From: Actinomycetota bacterium
GTDB lineage: Bacteria > Actinomycetota > Actinomycetes > S36-B12
Direction of reading: 5' to 3'
DNA length: 34,347 nt
NCBI GenBank assembly: GCA_029977425.1
Contig: JAPOKX010000004.1
Location: 1 to 34,347 of the forward strand
Of this stretch, positions 6,698 through 18,039 are shown piece after piece. Each line of letters starts with the position of its first letter. The stretch's first letter is position 1. A program made the position numbers and the translations under genes. The notes under the pieces were generated by a model. The model was not told where the DNA came from and searched no databases. It was given only the letters and a program-made list of their open reading frames with translations.

Positions 6698-7858
6698 GTG
6701 CACATCGTCGTCCTCAACTGGCGAGACACTGCCAATCCCGAGGGCGGTGGCTCCGAGGTGTACGTCGAGCAGCTGGCGCGGCGGTGGGCGCAGCACGGCC
6801 ATCGGGTGACCCTGGTCTGCGCGGCCCACGAGCGTGCCCCTGCGCTGGAGGAGCGCGACGGAATCCGCATCATCCGCGTGGGCACCAAGCTCACCGTCTA
6901 CTCGCGTGCGCGCAAGCTCCTCCGCCGCGGAGCGCTCGGGAGGGTCGACGTCGTCGTCGACACGCAGAACGGCATCCCCTTCTTTGCCCGCTACGCCACA
7001 CAGGCGCCCACCGTCGTGCTCGTGCACCACGTGCACCGCGAGCAATGGCCTGTGGTCTACGACCCGGTGCGCGCACGCGTGGGCTGGTTCATCGAGTCCG
7101 TTGCCGCGCCCCGTGCGCTGCTCGGGAGCGCCTACGTCGCCGTCTCCGAAGCCACGCGCAGCGAGCTCATCGCGCAGGGGGTCCCTGCTCAGAGGATCAC
7201 CGTCGTGCACAACGGCACGGAGGCCCTCGCCGCCAGTGGATCTGCCCGTGATGCCGCGCCGCGCATCCTCGTCCTCGGCCGCCTCGTCCCCCACAAGCGC
7301 GTGGAGCACGTGATCGCGGCCGCCGCTCGCCTGCGCGAGCGCCACCCCGGGCTCAGCATCGCCGTCGTCGGCGATGGCTGGTGGGCGCCTCACCTGCATG
7401 AATCCGCACGGGCGCACGGGGTCGCCGACATCGTCGAGTTCACCGGTCACGTGAGCGAGGCGGAGAAGGCGCGCCAGGTCGATCGGGCGTGGGTGCTCGC
7501 TCTTCCGTCACTCAAGGAGGGCTGGGGGCTGGTCGTCATGGAGGCGGCGTCCCGCGGCGTCCCCACGATCGCCTACGCCGACGCAGGGGGCGTCACCGAG
7601 TCTGTCGAGGACGGCGTCACAGGTGTGCTCGTGGACGGCGAGGAGCCGGAGTTCGTCGCTGCCCTCGACGCGCTCCTCAACGACTCTGCTCGCCGCATCG
7701 ACATGGGCGAGCGCGCACGGAAGAGGTCCGCTCAGTTCTCCTGGGATGCCTCAGCGGAGAGATTCGAGGACGTGCTCGAGTCCGTGGTGGGCGCCGCGAA
7801 ATCGCGCCCGGGGGCTACTGGGTCGCGCCGTAGACGACGTAGGGCTTATCGACCGTAG
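6698..7858 (+). CDS. GT4-family glycosyltransferase
   Basis: GTG start: MHIVVLNWRDTANPEGGGSEVYVEQLARRWAQHGH..., RILVLGRLVPHKRVEHVI, E-x7-E region PSLKEGWGLVVMEAASRGVPTIAY. N-terminal part of the 6005 ORF is antisense artefact. Confidence 0.9.
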   Translation: MHIVVLNWRDTANPEGGGSEVYVEQLARRWAQHGHRVTLVCAAHERAPALEERDGIRIIRVGTKLTVYSRARKLLRRGALGRVDVVVDTQNGIPFFARYATQAPTVVLVHHVHREQWPVVYDPVRARVGWFIESVAAPRALLGSAYVAVSEATRSELIAQGVPAQRITVVHNGTEALAASGSARDAAPRILVLGRLVPHKRVEHVIAAAARLRERHPGLSIAVVGDGWWAPHLHESARAHGVADIVEFTGHVSEAEKARQVDRAWVLALPSLKEGWGLVVMEAASRGVPTIAYADAGGVTESVEDGVTGVLVDGEEPEFVAALDALLNDSARRIDMGERARKRSAQFSWDASAERFEDVLESVVGAAKSRPGATGSRRRRRRAYRP

Positions 7859-12467: not shown

Positions 12468-15108
12468 CTAGTGTCCCGCGGCTTCCCAGTTCGGACCCTC
12501 GCCGACGGACACGTCGAGGGGGACGCGCAGCTCGACCGCACCGGCCATGGCAGCCACGACGAGATCGCGCACCTCGGCGGACTCCCCCGGCGCCACCTCG
12601 AGCACGAGTTCGTCATGCACTTGGAGGAGCAGCCGCGATCCCAGGCCGCGCTCTCCGATCAGTCGATCGACCTCGAGCATCGCGACCTTGATGATGTCGG
12701 CGGCCGATCCTTGGATGGGCGCGTTGAGGGCCATGCGCTCGGCCATCTCGCGTCGCTGGCGGTTGTCGCTCGCGAGATCGGGAAGGTAGCGGCGGCGTCC
12801 CAGAAGCGTCTCGGTGAAGCCCCGTTGACGCGCCTCGTCGACGACTCCGCGCAGGTAGTCCTGCACGCCCCCGAAGCGCGCGAAGTAGTCGTCGCGGAGC
12901 ACGCGCGCCTCATCGGGCTCGATGCCGAGCTGCTGCGCCAGGCCGAAGGCCGACAGTCCGTACGCCAGGCCGTAGGACATGGCCTTGATGCGCCGGCGCA
13001 TCTCGGCGTCGACGTCGCCCGGGGCCACGCCGAAGACGCGAGCCGCCACCGTGGTGTGCAGGTCCTCTCCCTCCGCAAACGCGTCGATGAGGCCCTCGTC
13101 CTCGGAGAGGTGCGCCATGATCCGCATCTCGATCTGGCTGTAGTCCGCAGTGAGCAGCGACGAGTAGCCCTCGCCCACGACGAAGCACTCGCGAATACGC
13201 CGCCCCGCCTCCGTGCGAATGGGGATGTTCTGAAGGTTGGGCTCCGTGCTCGACAGGCGGCCTGTCGCGGCAACCGTCTGCTGGAAGGTCGTGTGGATGC
13301 GACCGTCGCGCTCCGCCAGGGGAATGAGCCCATCCACGGTCTGTCGCAGCCTGCTCCAGTCGCGCCAGCAGGTGCTCGAGGAACGGGTGCGCGGTCTTGT
13401 CGAACAGGGACTGCAGCGCGTCGGCGTCCGTCGTATAGCCGGTCTTGATGCGCTTCGTCTTCGGCAGGCCCCGCTCGCCGAAGAGGATCTCCTGCAACTG
13501 CTTCGGCGAGCCGAGGTTGAAGGGCCGCCCGACGATGGCATGCGCCTCCGACTCCGCAGAGCGCGCATGGTCGCCGAATTCCGCGGAGAGCGCTCGAAGG
13601 CCATCGACGTCCACGGCGATGCCCGTGCGTTCCATCTCGGCCAGCACGCGCTCGAGCGGGAGCTCCACATCGGCGAGCAGGCTCCCGGCGCCGCGGGCCT
13701 CAACCTGGGCGTCGAGCACCGCGGCCAGTTCGCCGATCGCCGAGGCCTCGGCAGCGAGATCGTCGTGGCCGCCGTCCAAGGCGAGCTGACCGTCGCCGCC
13801 GGGGGCGATGGCTCGACCCAGGTAGCGCTCGCACAGGCCTGCGAGGTCTCCTGCGCGCTGGCCGGGCTGCACCAGGTACGCCGACAGCGCCGTATCCGAG
13901 ACAACGCCCTGCAAGTCCATCCCGAGTGACCACAGGGCCAGCAGCGGTCCCTTCGCATCGTGGAGGACCTTGGCGCGCTCGACGTCGGCCAACCACGCCT
14001 CCAGCGCCACACGATCAGACTCCGCGACCTCTGTCCACGGGCCCGTCACCACGGCCGTGCCGTCCGTCGCGGCGAGCGCCAGGGCCTCGAGCGTCCCCGT
14101 GCCCGAGCCCCAGGTGCCACGGACAGCCACGGCGATAGGGCCCGAGGCCGAGTCGAGCCACGTCGTCCATCCGCCCGCGGCGAGTGCTTCTACGTCGACT
14201 TGCGGAGCCTCGGCAACGGCGGCTGCCTCCGTGGGCAGCGACTCGAAGAGCCGATCGCGCAGCACCCGGAACTGGAGTGCGTCGAAGACCTCGTGCACGG
14301 CCTCGGGAGTGGGATCACGGCGCTGAAGCTCGTCCAGGTCCACGTTGATGGGTACGTCGCGGACGAGTTCCGTGAGCTGTCGATTGACCAGCACCTGGGG
14401 CAGGGCCTCGCGCAGGGCATCGCCCGTCTTGCCGCGGATCTCCGCCACATGGTCGACAAGGCCGTTGAGGGAGCCGTACTCGGTGATCCACTTGGTGGCC
14501 GTCTTCTCACCCACACCCGGGATGCCCGGCAGATTGTCGCTGGGGTCGCCCCTGAGAGCAGCGAAGTCCGGGTACTGGGAGGGCGTGAGTCCGTACTTCT
14601 CCTGGACCGCATCGGGCGTCATGCGCGCGAGGTCGGAGACGCCCTTGCGTGGGTAGAGCACCGTCGTGGAGGGAGTCACGAGCTGGAAGGTGTCGCGGTC
14701 GCCGGTGATGATCGCCGTCTCCATGCCCGCGGACTCCGCCTGCGTGGCCAGCGTGGCGATGAGGTCGTCAGCCTCGTATCCGTCGCGCTCGAGGTAGCGG
14801 ACCCCCATGGCGGTGAGGACGTCGCGGATGAGATCCACCTGCCCGCGGAACTCCTCAGGGGTCTTCGCTCGCGTCGCCTTGTAGCCCTCGAACGCCTCAC
14901 TCCGGAAGGTGGCTCGCGAGACGTCGAATGCGACAGCGACATGCGTGGGATCCAGGTCGCGCAACGCGTTGATGAGCATGGAGGTGAATCCGTAGACGGC
15001 ATTCGTCGGCTGTCCCGACACGGTGGAGAAGTTCTCGACTGGCAGGGCATAGAAGGCCCTGTACGCAAGGGAATGCCCGTCCAGGAGGAGAAGCCGTCCC
15101 GTCGTCAC
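12468..15108 (-). pseudogene. polA: DNA polymerase I, reading frame interrupted near 13363-13367 (frameshift or assembly error)
   Basis: N-terminal frame (12910..15108): MTTGRLLLLDGHSLAYRAFYALPVENFST... through TTDADALQSLFDKTAHPFLEHLLA. C-terminal frame (12468..14012): RDWSRLRQTVDGLIPLAERDGRIHTTFQQTVAATGRLSSTEPNLQNIPIRTEAGRRIRECFVVGEGYSSLLTADYSQIEMRIMAHLSEDEG.... The two join into a full PolA of about 880 aa. Confidence 0.93.
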
Positions 15109-15746: not shown

Positions 15747-17039
15747 GTGCATCGGGGAATTGCCCGTCTCGTCCTGGTCTTGGTGGGGTTCTTCGCGGCC
15801 GTCCTCATGGGCTTCGGGCCCGCTCAGGCGGAAGGGCCCTCGATCACCGCAATCGTGACCGGCGCCGACAAAGCGCCCATATCCGGCGTAACGGTCAATG
15901 TTGCCGGGCCGGACGGCTTCACGGGGTCCGGTGAGACCAATGCCGAGGGCCAGGCCACGATTGAGGTCCCCGCGGGCGGCAAGTACACCGCGACCGTCGA
16001 CGTGGCCACCCTGCCGGTGGGCGTAGAGGTGAAGAGCGGCCCCGAGCGCACCATCAACGTCCTTCAGGGTGACAAGAAGGCCCTCTTCCCCGTCGTCCCT
16101 GCGGGCGAGGGCGGGGACTCAGGTGGGGGCGGAGGTGGCATCTTCTCGGATATCACCGTCGACCGAGTGCTTCAGCTCATCCTGGACGGCATCATCCTCT
16201 CCTTGATCATCGCGCTGGGCGCCCTGGGACTCAGCCTGATCTTCGGCACTACCGGCCTGAGCAACTTCGCCCACGGCGAACTCCTGACGCTGGGCGCCTT
16301 CACCGTCCTGGTCCTCAACACCACACTCGGCCTCAACCTCATCATCGCCGCGCCCATCGGCATCGTCATCAGCGCGGCCCTGTGGGGCTGGGGACAGAAC
16401 CAGATCCTCTGGAAGCCGCTGCGCAGGCGCGGCACGGGCTTGATCGCCGCGATGATCGTGAGCATTGGCCTCGCCATCGCCTTGCGCTACACGATCCTCT
16501 TCTTCTTCGGCGGCTCTCCCGAGAGCTACGCGCAGTTCGCGGGCCAGCCCGGTATCGACCTCGGCCCGGTCTTCGTGACCCCGAAGGCGATCATCCTGTC
16601 GATCATCGCGGTCATCTTCCTCGTCGCGGCCGTCGCCTGGCTGAAGGGCTCGCGACTCGGCAAGGCCACGCGCGCGGTCTCGGACAATCCTGCGCTCGCT
16701 TCCGCTTCCGGCGTCAACGTCGAGCGCGTCATCTCCGTCGTCTGGGTGCTCGGCGCCCTTCTCGCGGCCTACGGTGGTGTCTTCCTCGGAATGACCCAGA
16801 ACGTCGTCTGGACCATGGGGCAGTTCCTTCTCCTCACGATGTTCGCGGCGGTCGTCCTCGGCGGACTGGGCACGATCAGCGGCGCGATCGTCGGATCGTT
16901 CGTCGTAGGCATTACGGTCCAGCTGAGCACGCTCATCGTGCCCCCCGAACTCAAGACGGCTTCTGCGCTGCTCCTCATGATCGTCCTGCTGCTGATACGA
17001 CCGCAAGGACTGCTCGGTCGACCGGAGAGGGTGGGCTGA
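15747..17039 (+). CDS. livH: branched-chain amino-acid ABC transporter permease LivH with N-terminal signal peptide and extracellular CarboxypepD_reg/Ig-like domain
   Basis: GTG start preceded by GGGAGG; signal-like MHRGIARLVLVLVGFFAAVLMGFGPAQA, small beta-rich domain, GEGGDSGGGGGGIF linker, then ILSLIIALGALGLSLIFGTTGLSNFAHGELLTLGAF (LivH). Confidence 0.9.
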   Translation: MHRGIARLVLVLVGFFAAVLMGFGPAQAEGPSITAIVTGADKAPISGVTVNVAGPDGFTGSGETNAEGQATIEVPAGGKYTATVDVATLPVGVEVKSGPERTINVLQGDKKALFPVVPAGEGGDSGGGGGGIFSDITVDRVLQLILDGIILSLIIALGALGLSLIFGTTGLSNFAHGELLTLGAFTVLVLNTTLGLNLIIAAPIGIVISAALWGWGQNQILWKPLRRRGTGLIAAMIVSIGLAIALRYTILFFFGGSPESYAQFAGQPGIDLGPVFVTPKAIILSIIAVIFLVAAVAWLKGSRLGKATRAVSDNPALASASGVNVERVISVVWVLGALLAAYGGVFLGMTQNVVWTMGQFLLLTMFAAVVLGGLGTISGAIVGSFVVGITVQLSTLIVPPELKTASALLLMIVLLLIRPQGLLGRPERVG

Positions 17040-17040
17040 C

Positions 17041-18039
17041 ATGGATATGGGTTTCGTCCTCACACAGGCCATCTCGCAGGCGATCGGCGTCACGGCGATC
17101 ATCTACCTGCTGGCCACCATGGGCCTCAACATCCAGTTCGGATACACCGGCCTGCTCAATTTCGGCCAGATCGCCTTCGTGGCCGTTGGCTCCTACGCCA
17201 TCGGCGTCTTCATGGTCCAGTGGCAGGGAAGTGCTTTCGTCCCCAATCTCTGGGTCGCGATTCTCTACGCCATCCTGCTGTCGGTAGTCCTCGCACTCAT
17301 CCTCGGCGTACCCACCCTGCGATTGCGGGCGGACTACCTGGCCATCGTGACCATCGCCGCCGGCGAGATCATCCGGCTCCTCTTCAAGTCCACCGATGCC
17401 CTCGGCGGCGCGCAGGGCATCAACGGCAAGATGGGCGAGGAGTTCTACGCCATCAACCCGTTCCCGGAGCAGGACCGCTTCGACTTCGGGCCGCTCAGCT
17501 ACACCCGCAACGACGCGTGGGTCGTGACGGTCGGCTGGATCGTCATCGTCCTGCTCCTGCTGCTCACCTGGGCGCTCATGCGCAGCCCCTGGGGTCGCGT
17601 CCTCAAGGGAATCCGCGAGGACGAGGATGCCGTGCGCTCGCTCGGCAAGAGCACCTATCTCCGCAAGATGCAGGCCCTCATCCTGGGCGGCATCTTCGGC
17701 ACCCTGGGTGGCGTCTTCTGGGCGGTCGCCAAGCAGTCGGTTCAGCCTGACTCCTTCGTGCCCGCCTTCACGTTCTTCTGCTACACGATCCTCATCCTCG
17801 GCGGTGCAGCACGGGTGATGGGACCCGTGGTCGGAGCCATCATCTTCTGGTTCCTGCTCGTCTTCATCGAGCAGTTCCTCCTGCTCCTCATCAGCAATGG
17901 GACGATCACGTTCCTCGAGCCCACGCAGGTCGGCCCCATCCGATTCATCCTCGTCGGCCTGGGACTCATGCTGCTGATGATCTTCCGTCCTCAGGGAATC
18001 CTCGGAGACAAGAAGGAGATTGCCCTCGATGCCCGGTGA
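17041..18039 (+). CDS. livM: branched-chain amino-acid ABC transporter permease LivM
   Basis: MGLNIQFGYTGLLNFGQIAFVAVGSYAIGVFMVQW... LRADYLAIVTIAAGEIIRLLFKSTDALGGAQGI. Confidence 0.93.
   Translation: MDMGFVLTQAISQAIGVTAIIYLLATMGLNIQFGYTGLLNFGQIAFVAVGSYAIGVFMVQWQGSAFVPNLWVAILYAILLSVVLALILGVPTLRLRADYLAIVTIAAGEIIRLLFKSTDALGGAQGINGKMGEEFYAINPFPEQDRFDFGPLSYTRNDAWVVTVGWIVIVLLLLLTWALMRSPWGRVLKGIREDEDAVRSLGKSTYLRKMQALILGGIFGTLGGVFWAVAKQSVQPDSFVPAFTFFCYTILILGGAARVMGPVVGAIIFWFLLVFIEQFLLLLISNGTITFLEPTQVGPIRFILVGLGLMLLMIFRPQGILGDKKEIALDAR

Follow-up and report, generated by a model that had tools for sequence, protein, structure and literature searches.

We found that the polA gene in the window, a 34,347-nucleotide stretch that is contig C217 of a draft actinobacterial genome, is frameshifted at the end of a short patch of foreign sequence, and we conclude that a local assembly chimera, formed in a metagenome-assembled genome, is the most likely source of the broken gene. 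The break is accompanied by the patch itself, by native flanks on either side of it, by a 7-mer offset of 5 bases and by other frameshifts in the same draft. The join, we infer, was made by the assembler rather than in a cell, and polA is most likely intact and single-copy in the organism itself.

Position of the frameshift in polA

On the minus strand, the first polA frame runs from 15108 through ...TAHPFLEHLL, beyond which it is open as far as 12910 but no longer homologous; the next frame takes up the homology at RDWSRLRQTVDGL... and continues to a stop at 12468 (Table 1). The Pfam DNA_pol_A profile (PF00476) is divided between the frames, with positions 3-81 matched in the first and 82-380 in the second. 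Both of these parts score above the cut-off, as do PF02739 and PF01367 (5'-3' exonuclease), and a degenerate 3'-5' exonuclease-like domain, PF22619, is also present. The gene therefore has the domain content of PolA but not its one uninterrupted frame, with the break at 13362-13368, in the polymerase domain and at the place where the earlier note had put it. The frame is open across this site in all relatives from which the motif was recovered, namely 9 same-genus and ~85 other actinobacterial loci; the genus comparison set consisted of 10 other genomes, in 9 of which the recovered stretches of polA are open at this site.

Aligned to same-genus polA, the window's gene has exactly 5 bases fewer at the break, in agreement with the net loss at 13363-13367 that had been proposed. 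The absence of further decay around the break, also claimed before, is borne out by dN/dS values for the 3' part of ~0.07 against L004 and 0.04 against L005, similar to the ~0.06 between L004 and L005, both of which are intact; these values show no relaxation of selection on the 3' part. A search of the draft genome (1.85 Mb in 272 contigs, 79% complete) found no second copy of polA, and the gene is single-copy in this genome and in the genus, with the exception of weak extra matches in G009. In that genus member, a weaker, interrupted second match to family A polymerases is found at G009:C106:3242-4969.

Elsewhere in the window, a branched-chain amino acid permease (BPD_transp_2; 15747-17039, plus strand) has a start resembling a signal peptide and, ahead of its membrane part, a carboxypeptidase-regulatory-like domain (PF13620, just below the cut-off), and a second permease follows directly at 17041-18039.

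Table 1. Features of the interrupted polA gene in the window
Feature	Coordinates	Strand	Basis
polA (DNA polymerase I) pseudo-open reading frame, single break	12468..15108	-	profile matches in two frames
polA 5' part, native: 5'-nuclease, exonuclease-like domain and start of the polymerase domain	13424..15108	-	identity comparison
Mycobacterium-like foreign patch in polA	13362..13423	-	identities and Mycobacterium-specific residues
CTGGCGC junction 7-mer, the place of the frameshift	13362..13368	-	occurs in both donor and native polA, with a 5-base shift in register
polA 3' part, native: palm and fingers, including the catalytic core	12468..13364	-	+1/-2 frame relative to the 5' part

A Mycobacterium-like patch adjoins the break

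The patch (~62 bases) is 87-95% identical to Mycobacterium polA, compared with 58-68% for polA of the organism's own genus. In the left flank (13424-13523, 100 bases) these identities are 76-80% to Mycobacterium and 82-91% to the genus, and in the right flank (13262-13363, 102 bases) they are 61-67% and 75-85%, respectively. The left edge of the patch may lie anywhere from 13423 to ~13447, the sequences being conserved there. The earlier note had missed that the sequence directly 5' of the break does not belong to the genus.

At the protein level, LQSLFDKTAHPFLEHLLA before the break is letter-for-letter that of Mycobacterium PolA (L069, L070, L076 and L077), and the genus members all read like LQSLFAKTEDPVLECILRW at this place. 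Mycobacterium-specific residues, encoded by matching codons, occupy 7 of the 20 codons before the break; other genus members have at most 2. Across the whole of polA, 13 bases agree with the majority base in Mycobacterium and are not found in the genus, and 8 of these 13 fall within one 60-base stretch, compared with no more than 3 such bases per 60 in any other genus member. Foreign sequence is thus found inside a native gene with native flanks, the pattern that marks a local assembly chimera. Horizontal transfer of the whole gene was rejected because of the native sequence on both flanks. A search of 397 genomes from across the phylum, and of 397 from the best-matching genus, did not turn up the exact donor, the best match being 93% over 82 bases and, over the 62-base patch, 95%; that a false overlap of k-mers produced the left edge therefore stays a proposal.

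The 7-mer CTGGCGC spans Leu-Ala-His (CTG GCG C) in Mycobacterium and Arg-Trp-Arg (C TGG CGC) in native polA, of which L009 is an example. Measured from a common codon, the offset of the 7-mer is 9 in L070 and L124, both Mycobacterium, and 14 in L009, of the same genus. Since CTGGCGC stands exactly 5 bases apart in donor and native polA, a join at this 7-mer yields the 5-base deficit, and when the donor is read to the end of CTGGCGC and the native gene from there on, the window sequence is obtained with exactly 5 bases lost. The HLLAxRDxxRL spacing that the earlier note had recognised as the usual actinobacterial one is the donor's motif; the Trp that the note placed before Arg-Asp does belong to the native gene, WRD being conserved in the genus.

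Other frameshifts in the same draft

We scanned a 538 kb sample of the same draft (29%) for further events. Because a tblastn scan returned mostly shadow frames in this high-GC genome, we used a codon-based scan for coding signal that switches frame without a nearby stop, a procedure that detects out-of-frame joins only. Besides polA, three further frameshifts were found, in serS (+1), xthA (-1) and sucB (+2), of which the first two are confirmed by aligned relatives and the third comes from the tblastn scan.

In xthA (exodeoxyribonuclease III; L196, G000:C213, ~6822-6900), a 1-base deletion comes right after a foreign-like stretch. G031, a genome of another family, matches the 75 bases before the break at 97% identity, compared with 80% for the best own-genus match, and beyond the break the native sequence continues with a shift of one base. 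In serS (L205, G000:C223, ~7597), a 1-base insertion interrupts the draft's only seryl-tRNA synthetase gene, and the ~15 bases just before the break, like the residues there, follow G946, of a different genus, a weaker signal than that in xthA. The gene is single in the genus and whole in one frame in 9 of the 10 other members, the tenth running off a contig end, and seryl-tRNA synthetase is indispensable to any cell. In sucB (E2 lipoyl domain; L163, G000:C15, ~276-283, 277 bases from the contig start), there is a 2-base insertion relative to G008, and a Mycobacteriaceae match that stops at the break is suggestive of a foreign source, but lipoyl domains are conserved everywhere. Frameshifts therefore recur at unrelated places, an indispensable gene among them, with a donor signal that is clear in xthA, weaker in serS and suggestive in sucB.

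Two comparison genomes gave one candidate frameshift each, in 423 and 658 kb, a rough comparison of rates. Candidate frame changes called from coding signal alone are also seen at L192 ~3678, L189 ~8773 and L196 ~5339. The draft contains runs of exactly 10 N, an indication that it was scaffolded; two of these gaps were inspected for unclosed foreign tails and none were found.

Origin of the join

In the mechanism that we propose, native polA would have been assembled as two pieces, of which the upstream one would have run at its end, via the conserved stretch at ~13424-13447, into reads from the polA of another, Mycobacterium-near actinobacterium and so gained ~60 foreign bases, and the foreign end would then have been joined to the downstream native piece at the short false overlap CTGGCGC. 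With the native CTGGCGC lying 5 bases further on, 5 bases would have been dropped and the frame broken. The presence of several donors and several affected housekeeping genes, including the indispensable serS, in a scaffolded draft points to chimeric assembler joins, and the broken state of the sole copy of an essential gene makes an assembly chimera the most likely source. The earlier note had leaned towards an artefact, and our analysis supports that leaning. Two points count against an assembly chimera: for common assemblers, 7 bases make a short overlap, and the signal in sucB is suggestive at most.

The same structure could have arisen in vivo, a transformed foreign polA fragment having replaced ~60 native bases by short-patch illegitimate recombination. 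Homology at one end and out-of-register 7-base microhomology at the other would then have produced the 5-base deficit, and polA would be broken in the sampled cells. The patch in polA is short and replaces the matching stretch, and a homologous anchor combined with microhomology is the structure of homology-facilitated illegitimate recombination (HFIR; PMC3240628), here found as the conserved stretch at ~13424-13447 and the CTGGCGC 7-mer. We nevertheless regard this origin as unlikely: the rate measured for HFIR in E. coli conjugation is only 3x10^-10 per recipient (PMC3240628), the donors vary between places in the draft, and the essential, single-copy serS has apparently the same kind of frameshift, which would be intolerable for a living population. 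Were the patches real, this freshwater-type actinobacterium would frequently undergo very-short-patch illegitimate recombination with other actinobacteria, and its housekeeping genes would be left with foreign tracts of 15-90 bases whose ends are out of register; we give this reading a rather slim chance. Such patches would constitute unusually dense natural examples of illegitimate recombination. We found no useful literature on short-patch double illegitimate recombination or on 10-N scaffold gaps.

The cause put forward in the earlier note was a simple 5-base deletion in the native allele, a second TGGCG copy having collapsed through mutation or sequencing error. The arithmetic fits, and the genus does have the Trp codon TGG followed by CGC at this place. 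A deletion of this kind is very improbable, however, as it leaves unexplained both the 7 of 20 Mycobacterium residues with matching codons between native flanks and the offset of CTGGCGC; the stretch before the break is of Mycobacterium type, and the offset explains the deficit. The extra TGGCG expected in relatives is likewise missing, none of the aligned genus members having two copies (they read, for example, CTGCGCTGGCGCGAC). We rejected simple repeat collapse on account of the foreign patch together with the lack of a TGGCG tandem in relatives.

There is a negligible chance that polA is functionally split, or read with a programmed -2/+1 ribosomal frameshift, so as to yield a free 5'-nuclease together with a polymerase that is either separate or rejoined: purifying selection is apparent on both parts and the break lies within an open stretch of the downstream frame, but no relatives are split, no recognised slippery site is found, and the break falls after the first 81 of the 381 profile positions of the polymerase domain. 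The nearest starts in the right frame, GTG 13337 and ATG 13127, both lack a well-placed Shine-Dalgarno sequence, and a split gene with an internal start, an alternative that the earlier note had allowed for, was rejected for lack of a plausible start site near the break.

As biology, the polA break is probably ordinary. Its lesson is one of caution, in that a frameshift in a draft genome can conceal a chimeric join. Chimeric joins can be told from true mutations, with no need of reads, by testing whether the bases beside a frameshift belong to the organism.

Comparison with known systems

All domains of Mycobacterium smegmatis Pol I (PDB 6vdc/6vde), including the catalytic region, are also present in the window's polA, and the alignment covers ~590 residues of the 5' part and 299 of the 3' part. 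Unlike the M. smegmatis enzyme, the window's polA has one frame break between the two parts.

Local assembly errors in metagenome-assembled genomes that lack support from any read have been found to put incorrect genes into databases (Chen et al. 2020, PMC7111523). The lack of read support defines those errors, and the window is known from assembled sequence alone. As in the errors of Chen et al. (PMC7111523), a short stretch of consensus in an otherwise good contig results in a wrong gene, and several places are affected in one scaffolded draft genome.

HFIR is the integration of linear DNA in living cells (PMC3240628), and the polA join resembles it in that one end is homologous and the other shows microhomology of a few bases. 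Unlike HFIR (PMC3240628), the events in this draft are also found in essential genes and draw on several donors within one genome.
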